From a virus: a stretch of 25,241 bases of DNA. Where the stretch lies: positions 1 to 25,241 of IMG/VR virus record IMGVR_UViG_3300025732_000247; one strand, 5' to 3'. Made by a program: the position numbers and the translations under genes. The notes under the pieces were generated by a model. It ran no database searches. It was given only the letters and a program-made list of their open reading frames with translations, and was not told the DNA's origin. Shown in pieces: positions 11,452 through 23,153 of this stretch. Position 1 is the first letter of the stretch; each line of letters opens with the position of its first letter.

Positions 11452-11990
11452 TAAAGATTCTGAAGACTGGAATAAATGTAAAGAAAGTTGTAGATCAACT
11501 TGAAAAATATCCACAAGATTGGGACCATCAGAAACATCTGAAGGATTCTCAGTCCTTAGTTGATAGAGGATTTGCTGACTTGCCAGTAAGTGCTCTTCAA
11601 CTTATAATGGGTGGTGTCAAGAAAAAGGAAGATTTTGTTGGTGATTCTGAAATCAATATCAAAACTCCAGCATATCAACATCATAGTGAAATAAGGAAGA
11701 TTATTCGTAAAGAGTTTGGTAATAGAGAATTACATCGCTGCGGATTTCTTTCTCTTCCTGTTGATGAGATTGTTGGAGCACATATTGATGAAGGAACTTA
11801 TTATCAAACCAGAGATAGATATCATCTTTCTATTTTAGGAACTTATCAGTATTTTTGCGGAACTGATACTACTATTGTTGAACCAGGAACTCTTCTTTGG
11901 TTTAATAATAAATTACCTCATGGAACCGTTAATATCGGTGATGAGACCCGAATAACATTTGTATTTGATATGCCCCATGGACAAAGTTGA
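11448..11990 (+). CDS. Aspartyl/asparaginyl beta-hydroxylase-like Fe(II)/2-oxoglutarate oxygenase
   Basis: The 180-residue protein carries the jelly-roll oxygenase signature. Fe(II) ligands are H112-x-D114 (G-A-H-I-D-E-G) and H158 (L-P-H-G-T-V), and R168 ten residues later would bind the 2-oxoglutarate carboxylate. D-R-Y-H-L-S-I-L near 123-130 and E-P-G-T-L-L-W-F near 145-152 fit the aspartyl/asparaginyl hydroxylase family. The substrate is unknown; related enzymes hydroxylate protein side chains. The GTG start at 11448 overlaps the uvsX stop codon, and no upstream ATG is available. The 3' end overlaps gp41 by 14 bases. An oxygenase inside the recombination/helicase operon is odd. Confidence 0.8.
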
Positions 11991-13353
11991 AATTCTGATT
12001 CTTCGTAATCTTCTTCATAATGAAGCATATGTTCGCAAAGTTATTCCATTTATTAAATCGGAATACTTTGAGGATACAAATCAAAAGATAGTATTTGAAG
12101 AAATTTTAAAATTTGTTCAGGAATATAACCAACCAGCGACAAAAGAAGTTCTTTGTATTGAAGTAGAAAAGCGTCAAGACATTAATGATACTTCTTTCAA
12201 AGAAATCACTCAGATGATTAGTTATCTGGATGATGAGGCGGCAGAGTTTAATTGGTTAGTTGATACTACTGAAAAGTGGTGTCGTGATCGTGCTATTTAC
12301 CTTGCACTTATGGAGTCAATTCATATTGCTGATGGTAATGATGATAAGAAGAATCGTGATGCTATTCCTAGCATTCTTTCTGATGCTCTAGCAGTATCTT
12401 TTGATACTCACATTGGACACGATTATCTGTTAGATTACGAAGAACGTTATGAATCCTACCATAGAAAGGAAGAGAAGATTGAATTTGATCTTGAATACTT
12501 TAACAAAATCACAAAAGGTGGTTTACCTAATAAGACTCTCAATATCGCTCTTGCTGGTACGGGTGTCGGCAAAAGTCTCTTTATGTGCCATGTTGCTTCT
12601 TCCGTCTTATTGCAAGGCAGGAACGTTCTCTACATCACTCTTGAAATGGCGGAGGAACGAATTGCTGAAAGAATTGACGCAAACCTTTTAAACGTTCCCA
12701 TCCAAGATATTGGAGAACTTCCAAAACAGATGTTTGAAAGTAAGGTTACAAATCTTGCTAAGAAAACTCAAGGACAACTGATTATTAAAGAGTATCCTAC
12801 TGCGTCCGCCCACTCAGGACACTTTAAAGCACTTCTAAATGAACTTGCATTGAAGAAATCATTCCGTCCAGATATTATCTTTATTGATTATCTAAACATC
12901 TGTGCTTCTTCAAGGTATCGTGGTGGTAGCAATATCAACTCTTATACCTTTGTGAAGTCAATCGCAGAAGAACTTCGTGGACTTGCCGTGGAGTTTAATG
13001 TTCCTATTGTAAGTGCTACTCAGACAACTCGTTCTGGATATGGATCTTCTGATGTGGAACTTACTGATACTTCTGAAAGTTTTGGTCTGCCTGCTACTGC
13101 TGACCTTATGTTTGCCCTTATTTCTACAGAAGAACTTGAAGGTCTTGGTCAAATTTTGGTCAAGCAACTTAAGAACCGATATAATGACCCTACCATTCAT
13201 AAGCGTTTCGTGATTGGTATTGATAGGGCTAAGATGCGTCTTTACGACTGCGAACAATCTGCTCAACAAGATATCCTTGACAATGGAAAAGATGAAGAGT
13301 ATGATTATGAAGAAAAGAAACCTAAGAAATCATTTGAGGGATTTAAATTTTGA
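11977..13353 (+). CDS. gp41: gp41 replicative DNA helicase (DnaB-like)
   Basis: The 458-residue protein is the T4 gp41/DnaB-type hexameric 5'-3' helicase. An N-terminal helical domain (about 1-130) is followed by the RecA-like core. Walker A A-G-T-G-V-G-K-S ends at Ser200, the T-L-E-M-A-E-E segment is near 225, and Walker B I-I-F-I-D-Y-L-N-I has Asp304. S-A-T-Q-T-T-R-S-G near residue 347 is the H3-type motif. The C-terminus is acidic and then basic (E-E-K-K-P-K-K-S-F-E-G-F). It works with gp61 primase as the primosome. The ATG at 11977 ([13 protein letters not shown]) restores the family N-terminus; an upstream in-frame TTG at 11959 was rejected. Confidence 0.95.
   Translation: MDKVEILILRNLLHNEAYVRKVIPFIKSEYFEDTNQKIVFEEILKFVQEYNQPATKEVLCIEVEKRQDINDTSFKEITQMISYLDDEAAEFNWLVDTTEKWCRDRAIYLALMESIHIADGNDDKKNRDAIPSILSDALAVSFDTHIGHDYLLDYEERYESYHRKEEKIEFDLEYFNKITKGGLPNKTLNIALAGTGVGKSLFMCHVASSVLLQGRNVLYITLEMAEERIAERIDANLLNVPIQDIGELPKQMFESKVTNLAKKTQGQLIIKEYPTASAHSGHFKALLNELALKKSFRPDIIFIDYLNICASSRYRGGSNINSYTFVKSIAEELRGLAVEFNVPIVSATQTTRSGYGSSDVELTDTSESFGLPATADLMFALISTEELEGLGQILVKQLKNRYNDPTIHKRFVIGIDRAKMRLYDCEQSAQQDILDNGKDEEYDYEEKKPKKSFEGFKF
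13277..13305 (+). promoter_or_regulatory. Sigma70-type promoter for mazG
   Basis: TTGACA (13277-13282), a 17-bp spacer, then TATGAT (13300-13305), inside the 3' end of gp41. The expected start is near 13312, 41 bases before the mazG ATG. The same spacer length is seen in five other candidates here. Confidence 0.55.
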
Positions 13354-13944: not shown

Positions 13945-13966
13945 AAGACCCGCAAGGGTTTTTTTT
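13945..13966 (+). terminator. Intrinsic terminator of the gp43-mazG unit
   Basis: ACCC (13948-13951) pairs with GGGT (13956-13959) around a GCAA (GNRA) tetraloop. It can be extended by A-T and G-T pairs, and a long T-tract runs to 13966. The last T is also the first base of a TATAAATA late box. Confidence 0.85.
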
Positions 13967-14000: not shown

Positions 14001-15203
14001 ATGGATACCAAGCAACTTAGGGATTTGATGGAAGCATATTCTGAAGTTTATGCTCCAGAGCAACTTGATGAAGCATATTTGAGTGAAATTCCGACATCAA
14101 CGCAGATGGGTGGAAAACCTGCACAAGCAGCAAGACCACAACCAAGAGTAATGACTGCATTCGATGCTGGTGGTGGTAATGCAAGAGTTCGAGAATTAAT
14201 GCGTCAAGGAATTGGTGGTGTTGAAGCAAATAGAAGAGTCTCTACAACTGGTGAATATCTTCAAAGACAAGCAGCTACGAAAGCTGACGCATCTAGAAAT
14301 AGGTTTCCAACAGGACTTGCTGGTAGACCTGCTGGTAGTAATCCTCCCGCTAGACCTGCTGGTAGTAATCCTCCCGCTAGACCTGCTGGTAGTAATCCTC
14401 CCGCTAGACCTGCTGGTAGTAATCCTCCCGCTAGACCTGCTGGTAGTACTCCTCCCGCTAGACCTGCTGGTAGTAATCCTCCCGCTAGACCTGCTGGTAG
14501 TAATCCTCCCGCTAGACCTGCTGCTGCCCCCACAGGAGGAGTAGCAAAACCAACTCCAGCACCTTCAACTCCAGCAGAAAAACCATCTGCAATGGACCAG
14601 TGGGCAAAGGCAAATCCAAGACTTGCCCAAGCACAGCAGATTAGAAAGCAAGGTGGTTCTAGAGCAGAAGTAAATAAAGCACTCTATAATAAGGGAACAG
14701 CAGCTGCCACTTCAACCCCAACAGTTGTTAAGGCTGGATTTGATTTATTTGATGTTGTAAAGGGATATTTGATTGATGAGGGATTTGCTGAGACTGAGCA
14801 AGCAGCAATCGCTATTATGGCAAATATGAGTGAAGATTGGAAAACTACTATTATTGGTGAAGCATCAAGTAGAGATGAATTCACAAGAGCAGCTATTGCT
14901 CGTAATTCTGGTAGAAAGGGTGGAATTACATTTGAACCAGGACCAAACTGGGACCCCTCTGCTAATCGTGGAAGAGGTGCTCATTTAAATCCAAAGCAAA
15001 AGGAAAAGCAGCGTCGTAAAGCACTTCGTCAAGAAGAGTATATGGATGAAGCACAAGAGGCTCGCAATAACCCTGAGAAGTATGAAAGAGAGCAAAGCAA
15101 AAAATCTGCTCCTGTTCGTGGAGAAAGAACTCCTATGCCTCCAAGAGGAGATAAGCGTAGAGAGGACTTTGAGAAGTGGTATGCTAAGCAGATGGGTCGC
15201 TGA
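14001..15203 (+). CDS. Late modular protein with 9-residue proline-rich repeats
   Basis: This 400-residue late protein has four parts. The N-terminus (1-30) is M-D-T-K-Q-L-R-D-L-M-E-A-Y with L-D-E|A, a possible prohead-protease site. A linker follows. Residues 109-171 are seven near-identical R-P-A-G-S-N-P-P-A units (one has T for N) plus a degenerate eighth. A C-terminal module (about 250-290) contains V-V-K-G-Y-L-I-D-E-G-F and I-M-A-N-M-S-E-D-W-K, a pattern I know from cyanophage structural proteins. The last ~110 residues are highly basic. Further (L/I)-x-E|(A/G) sites occur (I-D-E|G, I-G-E|A). It is probably a virion or internal head protein driven by the TATAAATA box upstream. A terminator follows at 15228. 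Confidence 0.85.
   Translation: MDTKQLRDLMEAYSEVYAPEQLDEAYLSEIPTSTQMGGKPAQAARPQPRVMTAFDAGGGNARVRELMRQGIGGVEANRRVSTTGEYLQRQAATKADASRNRFPTGLAGRPAGSNPPARPAGSNPPARPAGSNPPARPAGSNPPARPAGSTPPARPAGSNPPARPAGSNPPARPAAAPTGGVAKPTPAPSTPAEKPSAMDQWAKANPRLAQAQQIRKQGGSRAEVNKALYNKGTAAATSTPTVVKAGFDLFDVVKGYLIDEGFAETEQAAIAIMANMSEDWKTTIIGEASSRDEFTRAAIARNSGRKGGITFEPGPNWDPSANRGRGAHLNPKQKEKQRRKALRQEEYMDEAQEARNNPEKYEREQSKKSAPVRGERTPMPPRGDKRREDFEKWYAKQMGR
14325..14513 (+). repeat. Seven tandem 27-bp repeats within a coding region
   Basis: Seven 27-base units encode R-P-A-G-S-N-P-P-A. The fifth unit differs by one base (AAT to ACT, Asn to Thr); the others look identical. Near-identity at synonymous positions points to recent expansion by slippage or recombination. 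Being a multiple of three, copy-number change keeps the frame. Confidence 0.95.
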
Positions 15204-15273: not shown

Positions 15274-15347
15274 GGGGATATAGCTCAGATTGGTAGAGCG
15301 CGGTCTTTGCAAGGCTGATGTCAGGAGTTCGAGTCTCCTTATCTCCA
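15274..15347 (+). tRNA. tRNA-Ala (anticodon TGC)
   Basis: A full cloverleaf can be drawn. The acceptor stem GGGGATA pairs with TATCTCC (one G-T pair), the D arm is GCTC/GAGC, and the anticodon stem CGGTC/GGCTG encloses a TTTGCAA loop with anticodon TGC. The T arm is AGGAG-TTCGAGT-CTCCT. The discriminator base is A and the 3' CCA is not encoded. It would read GCA and other Ala codons. It lies in the middle of the late island among alanine-rich genes but has an early-type promoter. A CTAAATA late box follows three bases after its 3' end. Confidence 0.96.
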
Positions 15348-15349
15348 TT

Positions 15350-15356
15350 CTAAATA
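15350..15356 (+). promoter_or_regulatory. CTAAATA late-promoter-like motif
   Basis: It lies between the tRNA 3' end (15347) and the ATG at 15374, in a 26-base gap. It matches the CTAAATA variant seen before 219 and 20292, and probably drives the next gene late in infection. Confidence 0.55.
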
Positions 15357-15373
15357 CCTATAAAACGAGTCCT

Positions 15374-16513
15374 ATGTCAAAGGCAGTTAATTTAGGATCT
15401 GTGATGGAGGGAATATTTGCCATCGCAGTTGGTTTGATAATGTGTGAGAGTGATGCTCCTAGTAGAAAACTTAGTGTTGGAAATGTAAATTCTATTCGTA
15501 GACAAGTTGGTGATTCTATGTACACTCGTGCCGGATTTACTAAAGTTCTTTTTAGGGGGAAACAATTTAGATTAAAAACAAAAGGTTCACAACCTGATTA
15601 TGTTCCGGATTTTGTAACCGTAACTTTAAAAGTTAGTCTAAAAGAAGGGGAAGTATCTAGTGCTTTTGGTAAAAAATATTTTGATAATACGAAAGAATCT
15701 GTAATACAAAGTCTAATTTCTCAAGTTGTAAATTCATCTACAAAATATAAAAGAGATTTACGACAAGCGCAAGATCAATATTTGCTCAATAATAAACCTG
15801 AAAAAGTAGATATTGTTATCGTCGCGGATGGTGTTGGTGGAGAATTGTCTGGAGGGGATTTGAAAGGAGATGTTGCTGTAAATATTACGATTAATGGAAC
15901 TCCAATTATAAACAGGAATTTAAATTTTTCTTTAAAGGCAGGAAAAACTCCAAGTAAAACAATATCTAATGAAAGTCCTTATAGATCTATGGTTAGAATT
16001 AATGAAACTTTTAAGCTTGGTGTTGATACTAAACAATATTCTTTTTTGGATGGGCAAGCGAGAACACCAAAAGAAAAATATGAAAAGGTGAAATATATTA
16101 CAATGTTTTATAATCAAGTTCTTGATAGGTTAGTTGAATCTTTTAAAGTTGGTGCTGGATCTGCTAAAGCGTGGGATTTTTTAAAAAAAGCTGCTTTTGG
16201 GAAAGACTATGCTCAAGTTGTTTCTATCGGAACTGGTGCTACTTATGAATCTAGTATTGAATACATAGATGCTTTGCAGAAAAGATATCCAATTTTAATT
16301 GCTGAGAGAGCACCTGGAAAAAATGGACCAAATGTTAAATTTATCATAAAAGAAATTGATAAACCTCTGTTTCAGATAAGATTTAAAAATAGATCAAAAA
16401 TTCTTGGTCCTGAAGAGGCATCTATTTCTGAGTTAAAAATGATGATAGAAACTGAAAAAATATTCAAACAACCTTCAAATTGGGATCCAGAAGTTGGTAA
16501 TATTGGTGTTTAA
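15374..16513 (+). CDS. Unidentified late protein with a weak PD-(D/E)XK nuclease-like pattern
   Basis: I do not firmly recognise this 379-residue protein. It has no membrane segment or low-complexity regions, so it looks like a globular enzyme. The central part reads K-V-D-I-V-I-V, then L-K-G-D166-V-A-V-N-I-T-I, and about 20 residues later N-F-S186-L-K188-A-G-K. This spacing resembles the D...(E/S)-x-K core of restriction-like nucleases. A K-P-L-F-Q-I-R-F-K-N-R segment occurs near residue 330. The match is suggestive only. The gene looks visibly richer in A/T than its neighbours, which may mean recent acquisition. The start at 15374 was chosen because the longer frame runs back into the tRNA. 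It has its own late box. Confidence 0.75.
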   Translation: MSKAVNLGSVMEGIFAIAVGLIMCESDAPSRKLSVGNVNSIRRQVGDSMYTRAGFTKVLFRGKQFRLKTKGSQPDYVPDFVTVTLKVSLKEGEVSSAFGKKYFDNTKESVIQSLISQVVNSSTKYKRDLRQAQDQYLLNNKPEKVDIVIVADGVGGELSGGDLKGDVAVNITINGTPIINRNLNFSLKAGKTPSKTISNESPYRSMVRINETFKLGVDTKQYSFLDGQARTPKEKYEKVKYITMFYNQVLDRLVESFKVGAGSAKAWDFLKKAAFGKDYAQVVSIGTGATYESSIEYIDALQKRYPILIAERAPGKNGPNVKFIIKEIDKPLFQIRFKNRSKILGPEEASISELKMMIETEKIFKQPSNWDPEVGNIGV

Positions 16514-16519
16514 TAAATA
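16512..16519 (+). promoter_or_regulatory. AATAAATA late-promoter-like motif
   Basis: One mismatch to TATAAATA, overlapping the previous stop codon and 36 bases before the ATG at 16555. It is the most likely late promoter for the nucleotidyltransferase gene and the one after it. Confidence 0.5.
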
Positions 16520-16554: not shown

Positions 16555-17859
16555 ATGAAAAACTTTTTCCAATTTTTGTCTGAGGCAACCCAGTCGCAAG
16601 CAGCAATGCAGGCGAAGAAACTTGGATTGTCTGGAGATGGTCACGGTGGATGGGTTGATCGTAGTGGAAAAGTTGTAGCCAGAACAGAAGACGGCAAACT
16701 TAAATTCACTGGTGAGAGGAAGGCAAAGGGTAAAGAAGAACCTACTGCTGAACCAAAGAAAGCAACTACACCACAACAACCTCAAGCGGCAGCACCTGCC
16801 CCACAAGCAGAACCTCAACAAGCACAAGCAGCATCGCAAGAAGCACAACCTGGTGAGGAACCAGCACCAACTTTAACAGTAGTATTTGGTCGCTTTAATC
16901 CTCCAACAATTGGGCATGAAAAACTTTTAAAATCTGCTGAAAAAGCATCTGCTGGTGGAGACTTAAAAATATATCCATCAAGAACTCAAGACCCTAAAAA
17001 GAATCCTTTAGACCCTGACACAAAAATTTCCTATATGAGAAAGATGTTCCCTGAGTTTGGGGAAAGAATTATTAATGACTATAAGATGGCAACTATATTT
17101 GATGTTCTTAGTGCAGCAGATCAAGATGGATATGGTAATGTAAATATTGTCGTTGGATCTGACCGTCAAGCAGAGTTTGAAAATCTTGCACAAAAATATA
17201 ATGGAAACCTTTATAACTTTGATTTAATTCGTGTTATCTCTGCTGGTGTAAGAGACGCTGATGCTGAGGGTGTTGAGGGAATGTCTGCATCAAAAATGAG
17301 AAAAGCAGTTACTGATAATGACTTTAATTCTTTCCGTAGAGGAACTCCTAAAACTTTAGATGATGGAGAAACACAAACTCTCTTTGATGCGGTTCGCCAA
17401 GGAATGGGTGCTAAAAAGGTAAAGGTTAAAAAAGAAAGTTTTGGTCTTTGGGAAATCGCTCCAAAATATGATATGGAGACTTTGCGTGAAAACTACATCA
17501 ATGGAAACATTTTTAATATAGGTGATATTGTTCAGAACTTAAACACTGGACTAATTGGTGAAGTAATGCGTAGAGGAACCAATTATCTCATCTGTGTTGC
17601 CGAGGAAGGATATATGTTCAAGTCTTGGATTAAAGACTTGATGGAATATGATGAAAAAACAATGAATAGAAAGATGAGACTGCCAGGAAAACCAAATACA
17701 TTAGTTGGAACCACTGGTTATTTCAAATACGCTGTTGATATGACCCCTGGATTTGAGAAGGGTGAGAAGACAAACCTTCAACCAGGTGCTAAACCATATA
17801 AAGGATACACGGTTTCAAATGTGAGAGAATTCCTAAATAAGTATAAGGTAAAGAAATAG
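16555..17859 (+). CDS. Late protein with a cytidylyltransferase/NMNAT-like nucleotidyltransferase domain
   Basis: The 434-residue protein is mosaic. Residues 1-11 (MKNFFQFLSEA) resemble T4 capsid-targeting leaders with L-S-E|A cleavage. Residues 13-55 form a module (Q-A-A-M-Q-A-K-K-L-G-L, G-D-G-H-G-G-W) that I associate with cyanophage structural proteins. Residues 60-105 are an Ala/Gln/Pro linker. The enzyme domain (about 106-290) has G-R-F-N-P-P-T-I-G-H at 112-121, the HIGH-type nucleotide-binding motif, and S-A-S-K-M-R at 244-249, corresponding to the I-S-S-T-x-x-R motif. Such enzymes join a nucleotide to a phosphate, as in NAD, CoA or CDP-alcohol synthesis. The substrate cannot be read here. 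The C-terminal ~130 residues (G-T-N-Y-L-I-C-V, M-F-K-S-W-I-K-D) form a further module. Confidence 0.88.
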   Translation: MKNFFQFLSEATQSQAAMQAKKLGLSGDGHGGWVDRSGKVVARTEDGKLKFTGERKAKGKEEPTAEPKKATTPQQPQAAAPAPQAEPQQAQAASQEAQPGEEPAPTLTVVFGRFNPPTIGHEKLLKSAEKASAGGDLKIYPSRTQDPKKNPLDPDTKISYMRKMFPEFGERIINDYKMATIFDVLSAADQDGYGNVNIVVGSDRQAEFENLAQKYNGNLYNFDLIRVISAGVRDADAEGVEGMSASKMRKAVTDNDFNSFRRGTPKTLDDGETQTLFDAVRQGMGAKKVKVKKESFGLWEIAPKYDMETLRENYINGNIFNIGDIVQNLNTGLIGEVMRRGTNYLICVAEEGYMFKSWIKDLMEYDEKTMNRKMRLPGKPNTLVGTTGYFKYAVDMTPGFEKGEKTNLQPGAKPYKGYTVSNVREFLNKYKVKK

Positions 17860-17869
17860 TAAGTTTACA

Positions 17870-20245
17870 ATGTCTATTAATCCTCTGAATGATATCTCCA
17901 AGGTATATCTGGAGCAGATTGCCGAAGCTTCTGTAAAGGAAAGAGCGGCAAAGGCAGTTGATCATCAAAGAAAAGGAACTCACGGTGATGATGATGAGCT
18001 AGAGCAACTTCAAGGAGATGTTCAAAAGTCTATCAATAAATTGAAGAAGAGAAGAGTAACAAGAGCATCAGCATCTCTTGCCGCAAGAAGAGTTCAGGGA
18101 GATGTAGAAAGGTCGAATAATTACGGTCCTCAGCGTCCCAAACCAGGAACAGTTACTGGTCGTCGTATCGAAGAACCAGAACCAACTGGATCAAAACCAA
18201 AAGGTTATCGCACTGAAGAAATTGGGATTAATGAGGCAAAGAAGAGAAAGGTAAAGCGTTGGTGGGATGATGATGGTGATGGTATTGGATATGAGAAAGG
18301 TGAAGTTTCTGGTAAGTTTAAGAGAAAGAAAGTAAAAGAATCATCCGATTATGACCCCATGGATGATGATGAGTTTGACCATGATGAAGCAGAAGAAAAT
18401 AGAGGAGTATCTGGAAAGAATAATCCTAAGGGTGGTAAAGCATTAGGTAAGAAAAAGAAAGGGATGAAGGAAGGTTTCTCAAACTGGAGACAAGATCTTG
18501 TAGAGATCGTCGCAACTGATGACGAAGATCAGAAAAAAATAGACGTAAAGAAAAAAATAAACAACAAAATTAAAACCTCAGCAATGGGTGGTGGTATCAA
18601 ACTAGGTGAAGCAGTTGAACAGATTGGTGGAACCCTCATTGAAATGGTTCAGATTGATAACATTCTTGACGACTTCACTGATTATGAAATTGACTTACTC
18701 TCCGATTCATTAATCGAAAAAGTAGTTGAAGAAGTTTTCTATAACTATCTTGAGGAAGGATATGATGCTGAAGAGATTGAAGATTATATCTGTGAGTCTA
18801 TTGATATCTCACTAAGTATTCTCAATGAAGCAAAAGTAACCTTTGGTCACGATACTCCTAATACTGAAAAGAAAGAAGGAGTTCTTCAAAAAATCAAAGG
18901 TGCTGTTAAGAAGGTAGGAAAGGCAGTTGCTCGTGGAGTTGGTTATGCTGCTGGTGCTGCTGTAAGAGGAGCAAAGGCAGTTGGTAGAGAAGCAAAATCT
19001 GGATATGAAAGAGGTAGAAGTGGATCTTCCTCTGGAGAAACTTCAAGATCTTCAGCATCCTCAAGATCTTCAGCACCCTCAACATCTTCTTCTAGTGATT
19101 CTGGAAGTGAAGGTGGTGAAAAGAAACCTGGTATTCTCTCAAGAGTTGCTTCTAAACTCAAGAAAGGACTTAAGAAAGCAGTTGCTAAAGGGGCAAGAGC
19201 AGTTTCCAGAGGAGCAAGAAATGTTGCTCGCAAGATGGAAGGTGGAGAAACCAAGAAAGCAGAAGCACCAAAAGCAGCACCTAAGAAGGCAGAAAAACCC
19301 GCCGACCCTTGGGGAGAACCTACAACTCCACCAAAAGCAAAGGCAAAACCAAAAGCATCCACTAAGAAAACTACAGCACCAAAAGCAAAAGCACCAGCTA
19401 AGAAAAAGAAGACGAGTAAGTTAGATGACCTTCTTGCTACGGTAAGAAGTGAAAGTGTTTGGATTAATGAAATGCCCTATCAAGTTTATGGTTCTCCTGA
19501 TGGTAAGAAAGAAAAGAAGATTGGTAAACCAGTAAAGAGTAAAAAGTATGCTGACGCAAGAGCAGCAGAACTAGAAGATACTCATAAAGCAACTGGTGGG
19601 CAGTATCGCTCTCAGTATGTCAAGAATTCTTTTGAACCCAAAGGTGAGTTGGTTGATGAGAAGACTTTAACTGATGCTGAAATGAAAAAGCGTGAAGAGA
19701 TTATTAAGTCTATGAAGGGTAAGGCAGAAGATTTTGAAAGAAGATATCCTGGTCGTGGTAGAGAAGTGATGTATGCCACTGCTACAAAGATGGCAAAGAG
19801 AATAGAAGAACAAGCACTTGATGAAAATATTTTAAGTGGAATTGTTGATAAAATTAAAGGTAGAAAGGAAATTGGTAGAACTGGAAGTGGTGGAAAAATT
19901 TACGCACCAACAAAACCAAAACCATCCACCGCCAAGTATCCATCATCACCTAAACCAGCTGCTGCTAGACCAACTGGAAGTGCTGCTGTTCAAGCAGTGA
20001 AAGATGACCCTTGGACTAAAGGTGCTATCTCAAGAGATGATGTAATGAGAGCAAGACAAGATATGAGAGCTGCTAGAGGAACCTCTCCAAAACCAACCTC
20101 TTCTAAACCAACTTCTTCTAAGCCAAGTAGAGGTGGAACATCATCATTATCAAACGCATCTTCATCTCCATCTAGTGTAACTAAAAAATATCAAGTCGGT
20201 GGATCTAGAGGTTATGGTATTTCTGGCATTAAACTAGCAGACTAG
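17870..20245 (+). CDS. Large basic modular late protein (probable internal/structural virion protein)
   Basis: The 791-residue protein is assembled from modules seen in cyanophage structural proteins. The N-terminus ends in Q-I-A-E|A (residues 17-20), a possible prohead-protease site. W-W-D-D-D-G-D-G-I-G-Y-E at 131-142 has a Ca-binding-loop look. An F-S-N-W-R-Q-D-L segment lies near 203, and an acidic helical region around 255-320 ends I-L-N-E|A. Lys/Ala/Gly-rich helices lie at about 334-378, and a second, similar one at about 416-457. Ser-rich and Lys/Ala/Pro-rich linkers follow, then an S-K-K-Y-A-D-A-R region near 560. Many (L/I)-x-E|(A/G) sites occur. No catalytic domain is seen. It starts 11 bases after the nucleotidyltransferase gene and is probably cotranscribed. 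The very basic composition suits DNA contact inside the capsid. Confidence 0.85.
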   Translation: MSINPLNDISKVYLEQIAEASVKERAAKAVDHQRKGTHGDDDELEQLQGDVQKSINKLKKRRVTRASASLAARRVQGDVERSNNYGPQRPKPGTVTGRRIEEPEPTGSKPKGYRTEEIGINEAKKRKVKRWWDDDGDGIGYEKGEVSGKFKRKKVKESSDYDPMDDDEFDHDEAEENRGVSGKNNPKGGKALGKKKKGMKEGFSNWRQDLVEIVATDDEDQKKIDVKKKINNKIKTSAMGGGIKLGEAVEQIGGTLIEMVQIDNILDDFTDYEIDLLSDSLIEKVVEEVFYNYLEEGYDAEEIEDYICESIDISLSILNEAKVTFGHDTPNTEKKEGVLQKIKGAVKKVGKAVARGVGYAAGAAVRGAKAVGREAKSGYERGRSGSSSGETSRSSASSRSSAPSTSSSSDSGSEGGEKKPGILSRVASKLKKGLKKAVAKGARAVSRGARNVARKMEGGETKKAEAPKAAPKKAEKPADPWGEPTTPPKAKAKPKASTKKTTAPKAKAPAKKKKTSKLDDLLATVRSESVWINEMPYQVYGSPDGKKEKKIGKPVKSKKYADARAAELEDTHKATGGQYRSQYVKNSFEPKGELVDEKTLTDAEMKKREEIIKSMKGKAEDFERRYPGRGREVMYATATKMAKRIEEQALDENILSGIVDKIKGRKEIGRTGSGGKIYAPTKPKPSTAKYPSSPKPAAARPTGSAAVQAVKDDPWTKGAISRDDVMRARQDMRAARGTSPKPTSSKPTSSKPSRGGTSSLSNASSSPSSVTKKYQVGGSRGYGISGIKLAD

Positions 20246-20689: not shown

Positions 20690-21211
20690 ATGGCACTCTG
20701 GGGAAATAACGATGCAGTAGGTGCTGGTGGTACAGTAACATTAAATTATGCCACTGGCGTTGTAACTGGAAGCGGCACTACATTTGGACAAACTGGTGCT
20801 GCTCAAGAAGGTGATGTAATTAGATTTGGTAATCGTGCTGGAATCTATTTTGGTGATGCTGTAATTGTAAGTATCGCTAGCACAACCTCTCTCACAATTG
20901 GATCAACTGCTGGTTTGAGTGGAGTTGCCATCGCAGGAACTAGTTTCAAAGTTTCTCAACTTCCAAAGTACACTGTTCTTGATTCTAAGTATAGTGAAGC
21001 ATCTTGGGGAACAGATGATTCCTATGTTTATGGTGTTGCTGATGGTGGTATTGCCGCTGCTCAAGGAACATCATATGCCCTAACTCATGAAGGTTGGGTT
21101 GGTGTTACTACATATATGGGAACTGAAGGCGGACTGAGAGTAAAGACTGAGACTCTTGTTGCTATGTCGGGAATTACAACTGGTAACGCACCTACATTCC
21201 CACCTGCATGA
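20690..21211 (+). CDS. Probable virion structural protein (MALWGN family)
   Basis: The 173-residue protein begins M-A-L-W-G-N-N-D, a start I know from cyanophage virion proteins. It is rich in Gly, Ala, Thr, Ser and Val, with alternating strand-like segments (G-T-V-T-L-N-Y-A-T-G-V-V-T-G-S-G), and no charged linkers, membrane segments or protease-like sites. This composition is typical of exposed beta-rich capsid decoration or tail proteins. GGAAG lies upstream of the ATG. The perfect late promoter and isolated transcription start suggest high expression. Its exact place in the virion cannot be told. It is followed, with no terminator, by a small gene at 21218. Confidence 0.8.
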   Translation: MALWGNNDAVGAGGTVTLNYATGVVTGSGTTFGQTGAAQEGDVIRFGNRAGIYFGDAVIVSIASTTSLTIGSTAGLSGVAIAGTSFKVSQLPKYTVLDSKYSEASWGTDDSYVYGVADGGIAAAQGTSYALTHEGWVGVTTYMGTEGGLRVKTETLVAMSGITTGNAPTFPPA

Positions 21212-22184: not shown

Positions 22185-23153
22185 ATGGATTTTGTTGATG
22201 TTAAATACATCAATTTGATATCTGCACGGTTTCAAAAGTTTAAAAAGATAAAGAATAATCTTTATAACTTCAGATGTCCTATTTGTGGCGATTCCCAGAA
22301 AAATAAGAGCAAAGCAAGAGGATATCTATATCAAGTAAAGAATAATACAAACTTCAAGTGTCATAATTGCGGAGTCAATATCTCCTTTAATAATTTTCTA
22401 AAGCAAATTGACTCAGTAATTTACAAGCAATATACTTTTGAAAAATTTAAGGATGGTAAAACTGGTAGAAACTTTACTGCAGAAGAACCAGTATTTAAGT
22501 TTGAAACTCCAAAATTTAAACCAAAGTTAGATCTACTAAAAGCATCTGAAAATGCTGATGCAAAAAAATATCTAGAAAGTAGAAAACTTAATCCGGATAA
22601 ATTTTATTACACTGACCAATTTAAATCGTGGACAAATTCTCTAAAAGATGTCTTCGATGATACAACTAAAGATGAACCTAGGATTATCATTCCTTTGTTC
22701 TATCAAAATACCCTTATTGGATTTCAAGGAAGAGCACTTGGTCCTAGCAAGGTTAAATATATTACCGTAATGCTTAACGATGACGCACCAAAAATCTACG
22801 GTCTCGATGAGATTGAAAAAAACAAAACTGTATACATCACAGAAGGTCCATTCGACTCCACTTTCATTTCAAACGCGATTGCTCTTTGTGGAGCTGACGG
22901 TGATATTAGTAAGTGGGGTATTAGCGATTGTGTTTGGATCTATGATAACGAACCACGTAATGCAGAAATCCACAACAGAATCTCCCGTGTCATTGACAGA
23001 GGTGAGAAAGTTGTGATTTGGCCATCTTCTTTGAGGGAGAAGGACGTTAATGATATGATTTTATCTGGACTGAATGTTAAGTCTGTGATAGAATCAAATA
23101 CATATTCTGGACTAGAAGCAAAACTTAAATTTACTACTTGGAAGAAAATATGA
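22185..23153 (+). CDS. gp61: gp61 DNA primase
   Basis: The 322-residue protein is the T4-type primase that lays RNA primers for lagging-strand synthesis and partners with gp41. An N-terminal zinc-binding domain has C31-x2-C34 and C59-x2-C62 (C-P-I-C-G-D and C-H-N-C-G). The Toprim-type catalytic core has T-E220-G-P-F-D at 219-224 and Y-D254-N-E256 further on. Between them, I-I-I-P-L-F-Y and F-Q-G-R-A-L-G near 165-185 are family-typical. The ATG at 22185 is two bases after the preceding stop codon. The stop codon overlaps the nrdA ATG (ATGA). It has its own consensus promoter immediately upstream. Confidence 0.94.
   Translation: MDFVDVKYINLISARFQKFKKIKNNLYNFRCPICGDSQKNKSKARGYLYQVKNNTNFKCHNCGVNISFNNFLKQIDSVIYKQYTFEKFKDGKTGRNFTAEEPVFKFETPKFKPKLDLLKASENADAKKYLESRKLNPDKFYYTDQFKSWTNSLKDVFDDTTKDEPRIIIPLFYQNTLIGFQGRALGPSKVKYITVMLNDDAPKIYGLDEIEKNKTVYITEGPFDSTFISNAIALCGADGDISKWGISDCVWIYDNEPRNAEIHNRISRVIDRGEKVVIWPSSLREKDVNDMILSGLNVKSVIESNTYSGLEAKLKFTTWKKI

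Follow-up and report, generated by a model that had tools for sequence, protein, structure and literature searches.

An uncultured T4-like cyanophage encodes a protein that is best explained as a late-expressed, head-packaged and ejected adenylyltransferase of the HxGH superfamily, a reading to which we give a probability of roughly 0.6. Its gene lies on a 25,241-bp IMG/VR virus record, a phage fragment that was analysed whole and is called the window below. Pfam and PHROG matching found a family-B DNA polymerase, UvsX, a DnaB-like helicase, MazG and a gp61-type primase among the window genes, and the window is a T4-like cyanophage fragment of the Kyanoviridae type.

The ORF at 16555–17859 matched the PHROG profile phrog_395, annotated as 'cytidyltransferase' (E = 2.5e-103, residues 98–402), and homologs of its 434-residue product were present in 533 of 50,697 phage records, mostly from Synechococcus and Prochlorococcus myoviruses, with distant ones in Methylophilales, enterobacterial and Pseudomonas phages. 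The closest isolate proteins are at most ~66% identical to the window protein, and over the full length identity is 59% with S-SM2 and 56% with S-SCSM1 ORF91 (QFG06348.1). The Pfam family CTP_transf_like matched the window protein weakly (E = 0.065) and its relatives significantly. The gene sits between gp41/mazG and gp61/nrdA genes, as T4-GC190 does, with the helicase at 11959 and mazG at 13350 on one side and the gp61-type primase at 22185 on the other. Judged by its sequence, the protein is a member of the T4-GC190/phrog_395 family of cyanophage nucleotidyltransferases. A first-pass annotation of this DNA had pointed to GRFNPPTIGH and SASKMR motifs placed between phage-type modules; both motifs were recovered exactly in this ORF, with family matches far beyond chance, and the modules correspond to phrog_3561 (match over residues 2–83) and phrog_4808. 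The ORF is organised as follows, with model confidence (pLDDT) where relevant.

16555..17859, plus strand: CDS, 434 aa, ATG start, T4-GC190/phrog_395 nucleotidyltransferase family protein
16585..16710, plus strand: small N-terminal module, residues 11–52, with DGHGGW; common to other cyanophage proteins; phrog_3561; pLDDT ~85
16711..16866, plus strand: Ala/Gln/Pro-rich linker, residues 53–104, low confidence, pLDDT mostly <50
16864..17415, plus strand: nucleotidyltransferase domain, residues 104–287, with a PPAT/NMNAT-like fold in the model
17476..17667, plus strand: C-terminal small beta module, residues 308–371; phrog_4808; pLDDT ~80

The C-terminal module is a gene of its own in S-RSM4 and S-PM2, and the name 'ribonucleotide reductase alpha subunit' that it bears in phrog_4808 and S-PM2p144 looks like a misannotation. 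Where nucleotidyltransferases lack the N-terminal leader described below, this module is a separate small gene starting MKDF (L084:5531-5785, L187:6059-6334), which might bring its partner into the head. Another label that looks spurious is 'cytidyltransferase' for the downstream gene (SSM1_191, Syn9 gp185), as that sequence has neither GRFNPP nor SASKMR.

A T4-type leader and detection of homologs in virions

Two features at the start of the gene bear on packaging and timing.

16513..16519, plus strand: T4-late-type promoter motif ATAAATA, ~36 nt before the start codon
16555..16584, plus strand: MKNFFQFLSE, a putative capsid-targeting sequence of ten residues; the prohead protease is predicted to cut after E10 (L-S-E/A, the slash marking the cut)

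The start of the window protein, MKNFFQFLSE/A, resembles that of T4 IPII/IPIII, MKTYQEFIAE/A. The first ten residues of T4 IPIII are enough for packaging, and T4 mutagenesis has assigned positions 4 and 7 to targeting and positions 8 and 10 to processing, with the cut made after L/I-X-E (PMC9026906). To avoid circularity, leader conservation was read in 70 homologs fetched by the enzyme motif rather than by the leader, starting from an anchor downstream of it. K2 was conserved in 68, F4 in 66, F7 in 69 and E10 in 67 of these; position 8 was L or I in 62 and otherwise F or V, and there was free variation at positions 5, 6 and 9. The window protein has the conserved residues at positions 4, 7, 8 and 10 together with the L/I-X-E cleavage motif, so that the capsid-targeting leader suspected on the first pass holds up in relatives retrieved without its use. 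Within the S-SCSM1 genome the leader pattern occurred in 2 of 402 ORFs, one of them the nucleotidyltransferase ORF91, and the major capsid protein of this phage has the same type of junction, FLAE/A, near residue 58. The second ORF with the pattern, ORF30 (L171:44215-44535; MKTFKQFMSES), is encoded among structural genes; its product is a small hypothetical protein and a candidate for packaging. Since our search of the literature (open PMC set) on capsid targeting in cyanophages gave no description of such a leader, its match to the T4 capsid-targeting sequence may be unreported.

Members of the family have been seen in virions repeatedly. Sullivan et al. (2010) listed T4-GC190, a 'putative citidylyltransferase', as a cyanophage core gene and found its product in virions of S-SM1 but not of S-PM2 (PMC3037559). 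Mass spectrometry later detected S-SCSM1 ORF91, called an NMNAT (2022; PMC9602691), S-CREM2 ORF154 (2023; PMC10665884) and, by 2 peptides only, S-SZBM1_140 (2022; PMC9146016). Carry-over of an abundant protein is a possible cause of detection according to the authors themselves (PMC10665884, PMC9602691). The S-SCSM1 authors proposed that ORF91 may enter the host and alter NAD levels (PMC9602691), the S-CREM2 paper likewise proposes a carried, injected NMNAT-like enzyme (PMC10665884), and the function of the virion homologs was left open in all of these studies (PMC3037559, PMC9602691, PMC10665884, PMC9146016). We found no enzyme assay of the T4-GC190 product in the literature searched (open PMC set). 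A virion NMNAT of S-CBWM1, considered as a further literature parallel, was dropped as evidence because it has no match to the T4-GC190 family.

Leader presence agrees with virion detection, although this comparison covers two leaderless homologs in very few phages and the sample is tiny. S-PM2p142, a fusion in which the C-terminal half of DUF6267, a family discussed below, precedes the enzyme, was not detected in S-PM2 virions (PMC3037559); PA5oct gp177, unlike most of the genes around it, carries no note of detection by mass spectrometry. Taken with the mass spectrometry of homologs, the T4-type leader and the late promoter motif give good support to virion carriage, and we consider it very probable that this nucleotidyltransferase family is packaged in virions, as had been proposed for the window protein. 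Since the S-SCSM1 (PMC9602691) and S-CREM2 (PMC10665884) papers already state the idea of an injected NMNAT-like enzyme, that idea is not new. The first-pass observation is confirmed, and its interpretation is partly supported and mostly right. The gene family, its presence in virions and the injected-enzyme hypothesis were already known; the present analysis adds the capsid-targeting signal and the late-motif evidence, corrects the class of substrate and connects the enzyme to a probable ligase.

Probable late expression, and neighbouring genes

The ATAAATA motif had been read as a late-like promoter. A single copy is not unusual in the window, which holds 6 occurrences of this 7-mer against 6.3 expected, and support for the reading therefore comes from recurrence: of 152 homologous loci, 110 have ATAAATA no more than 60 nt ahead of the start codon versus 14.8 expected from shuffling, an excess that is inflated by relatedness of the loci, and its most frequent position among them is -27. 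The motif also precedes the window genes starting at 14001 and 20690. In S-SCSM1 the nucleotidyltransferase gene sits in a run mostly annotated as virion proteins, one of which has a counterpart in the window.

20690..21211, plus strand: virion-protein neighbour; 63% identity to S-SCSM1 ORF95, whose annotation records its presence in virions

Several neighbouring genes have features of their own. The gene that follows the nucleotidyltransferase (window 17870-20245; L083:13235-14644; L082:13243-14805) encodes otherwise unalignable Lys/Ala-rich proteins with a conserved start, LNDISKVYxxxV, which may be a head-targeting leader of a second type; in S-SCSM1 this gene product has a virion-protein annotation. 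The window gene at 14001-15203, for which no Pfam or PHROG match was obtained, starts MDTKQLRDLMEA, with an L/I-x-E/A-type junction near the N-terminus, and possibly encodes another packaged protein; a perfect TATAAATA lies upstream of it at 13966. A tRNA-Ala (TGC) occupies 15274-15347 and overlaps the called start of the ORF at 15290-16513, whose true start is therefore probably 15374. In P-SSM2, the product of the gene upstream of the nucleotidyltransferase, PSSM2_192 (L088:7121-7798), shows a possible PD-(D/E)xK nuclease pattern, DAMF...HKLEVKL.

An apparently ligase-like gene beside the nucleotidyltransferase

The gene directly upstream of the nucleotidyltransferase in S-SM1, Syn9 and S-RSM4 encodes DUF6267 (PF19782), for which we found no mention in the literature searched. 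It is one small gene away in Melnitz-3, and in S-PM2 the two are fused or split-fused, with a 591-aa S-PM2 entry on record; phrog_455 covers both. Copies of DUF6267 lie at the following places.

L084:3778-4977
L085:3329-4573
L188:2296-3267
L189:1772-2731
L187:2526-4302

DUF6267 was carried by all 9 of the Kyanoviridae genomes tested and by neither of the 2 non-Kyanoviridae genomes. When IMG/VR loci were fetched by DUF6267 and counted where a motif was readable and the flank sufficient, the nucleotidyltransferase lay within 200 nt in 77 loci and nearby in 19 more (mostly at 230-440 nt), with 18 loci without it; in most evaluable loci DUF6267 is no more than ~300 nt upstream. The family conserves KxDG, EG and K...R in 62 sequences. 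Its model (pLDDT 90) aligned in VIA-align best with a Naegleria gruberi ligase (Z = 8.1, 183 residues), REL1 (7.8) and T4 Rnl2 (7.2), and the matches below these three were mostly further RNA and DNA ligases. A Foldseek search alone gave no significant ligase match, so the fold call draws on the motifs and VIA-align. From motifs and model, DUF6267 is apparently an unrecognised Rnl2-like family of RNA/DNA ligases.

This association suggests that the nucleotidyltransferase and the DUF6267 ligase might form a nucleic-acid repair pair whose targets would be RNA or DNA ends or tRNA, and which could, for instance, reverse damage done by host nucleases at the onset of infection. PDB profile searches with the nucleotidyltransferase family, although they returned weak matches only, had as their best a UPF0348, HIGH-NTase1-type protein (E = 0.0035), from a group which we take to include tRNA-modifying enzymes. 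In the lineage of the window itself, however, full-length nucleotidyltransferase loci with enough flank comprised 70 without an upstream DUF6267 and 2 with one, and DUF6267 was not found in the 25-kb window fragment. PA5oct has the nucleotidyltransferase without DUF6267, ligase Z scores near 8 are modest, and we know of no HxGH enzyme that directly modifies nucleic-acid ends. Overall we regard a repair pair as unlikely, but it competes seriously with the NMN/NaMN reading given below. More doubtful still is its fullest form, in which cyanophages would package and inject a two-enzyme kit for nucleic-acid repair or modification, made up of the T4-GC190 nucleotidyltransferase and the DUF6267 ligase, that works on the ends of RNA or DNA within minutes of infection, T4-type capsid-targeting leaders delivering at least the nucleotidyltransferase.

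A predicted nucleotidyltransferase fold with conserved motifs

The signature motifs of the HxGH superfamily are all found in the enzyme domain, together with one specific to the family.

16888..16917, plus strand: motif 1, GRFNPPTIGH, residues 112–121; T/HxGH nucleotide-binding signature; G, R, P, P, G and H invariant
17155..17166, plus strand: GSDR motif at the NMNAT GxD position; G, D and R invariant
17239..17256, plus strand: SAGVRD motif, specific to the family, with SxGxR invariant; may lie towards the acceptor substrate
17284..17301, plus strand: motif 2, SASKMR, residues 244–249; equivalent of ISSTxxR; S and R invariant

Invariance here refers to eight divergent phage domains, down to ~33% identity. 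A PDB single-sequence search with the window protein found nothing. An AlphaFold model of the protein built from 85 sequences had pLDDT mostly >90 across residues 104–285 and a disordered linker at residues 54–94, and in VIA-align its best fold matches, which cover 150–161 residues, were PPAT (3otw; Z = 14.3, 150 residues, 2.8 A), NadD (5vir; 13.3), NadM (2r5w; 13.0) and NMNAT (1m8g; 12.9). In the model the domain has the Rossmann-type nucleotidyltransferase fold (Z 13-14 over ~150 residues), and its sequence has T/HxGH, GxD and SxSxxR-type motifs. With differences in Z of about 1 between PPAT and NadD/NadM, fold comparison does not pick the closest of these, and the substrate therefore cannot be read from it. 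The structure prediction that had been suggested as a check on the active site thus returned a full PPAT/NMNAT-type fold with all signature residues. Neither of the outcomes named beforehand as refuting, a fold devoid of the nucleotide-binding pocket and absence from virions, was encountered. The model supports a complete PPAT/NMNAT-type domain, and catalytic activity as a nucleotidyltransferase is probable.

The protein might also serve as a packaged structural module that has lost its activity, in keeping with its detection among structural proteins of the virion and with flanking small modules common to other phage proteins. We consider this improbable, as the GR..PP..GH, GxDR and S...R residues are invariant in very divergent phages and even in stand-alone forms, a pattern difficult to account for unless the domain is catalytic or, at the least, binds a nucleotide.

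Substrate class

The packaged protein would then be an enzyme, and its profile matches lean towards adenylyl transfer. Among 85 homologs, NCBIfam models were matched by 85 (cyt_tran_rel), 76 (nadR_NMN), 66 (NadD) and 47 (CoaD), and no glycerol-3-phosphate cytidylyltransferase model was among the 25 most-matched NCBIfam families listed for them. Because these matches favour NMN, NaMN and pantetheine-phosphate adenylyltransferases, adenylyltransferase activity is likelier, on sequence profiles, than cytidyl transfer as annotated. Scores seen fall far short of the equivalog cut-offs (12.6 bits versus 341 for nadR, 11.9 versus 112 for TIGR00482), and those for NMN/NaMN adenylyltransferases (NadD, NadM, NadR) were not reached. 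The first-pass proposal of an NMNAT- or cytidylyltransferase-like enzyme, each half of it a guess, fares better in its first half than in its second. It is very improbable that the protein is a transferase of the cytidylyl or NDP-sugar type that modifies surfaces or lipids by way of glycerol-3-phosphate or phosphosugars, despite the widespread 'cytidyltransferase' annotation, a suggested glycerol-3-phosphate role (PMC9146016) and the suggestion that phages, cyanophages among them, make NDP-sugars with enzymes of the HIGH superfamily (PMC7824862). Both the NCBIfam matches and the best fold matches are to adenylyltransferases, although enzymes with a common fold may differ in substrate.

For the adenylyltransferase that we favour, NMN or NaMN would be the leading acceptor, a choice that we make tentatively. 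Every NadM-bearing phage is reported also to carry NadV (PMC9503650), whereas none of five phage genomes tested had NadV/NAMPT (PF04095), one of the five, S-CBWM1, being without the T4-GC190 family, and the window is represented by a fragment only; this contrast disfavours NAD salvage. The link to the ligase-like gene likewise speaks against a role confined to supplying NAD. The phage Namat enzyme (PMC12774641) was rejected as a relative, being an unrelated Nampt-type enzyme.

Proposed mechanism and comparison with known systems

We propose that the protein would be expressed late in infection and that its first ten residues would act as a T4-type capsid-targeting sequence, docking it onto the prohead core. 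A gp21-type protease would then remove the leader after E10, and the mature protein would stay inside the head until it is ejected with the DNA. Its middle domain, a member of the HxGH (PPAT/NMNAT) superfamily, would be an adenylyltransferase that uses ATP and transfers AMP to a small phosphorylated acceptor; were this NMN or NaMN, the product could supply NAD early in infection.

The T4-GC190 proteins of the isolates S-SM1, S-SCSM1 and S-SM2 have the same leader, domain order and genomic place as the window protein. S-SM1, S-SCSM1 ORF91, S-CREM2 ORF154 and S-SZBM1_140 belong to the same family and are virion-detected, whereas the window protein comes from a fragment of an uncultured phage. 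PPAT (CoaD), NadD and NadM/NadR share the fold and the T/HxGH, GxD and SxSxxR signatures; the window protein differs from them in being only ~9-17% identical, in its own SxGxRD motif and in scoring below every curated cut-off seen, and no Nudix or kinase partner domain was matched in it.

The first-pass annotation had drawn its analogy with T4 Alt. The notion of an enzyme that is packaged in the head and enters along with the DNA carries over, but Alt has ADP-ribosyltransferase chemistry and an enzyme domain of another superfamily, and no ADP-ribosyltransferase domain or fold is listed among the Pfam and fold matches of the window protein. As T4 IPII/IPIII share the 10-residue MKxxxxF(L/I)xE leader with its E10/A junction, the comparison with T4 is better made with these proteins than with Alt. 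They differ in cargo, the window protein carrying a nucleotidyltransferase rather than an IP-type protein, and its cleavage is predicted.

T4-GC190 belongs to the core genes of T4-like cyanophages. Its product has been reported in virions since 2010, yet we found no measurement of its substrate in the literature searched. The leader opens the packaging claim to a direct mutational test, and the conserved active site does the same for the enzyme claim. The tie to a probable ligase sets a concrete alternative beside the NAD hypothesis, which has been repeated in the literature.
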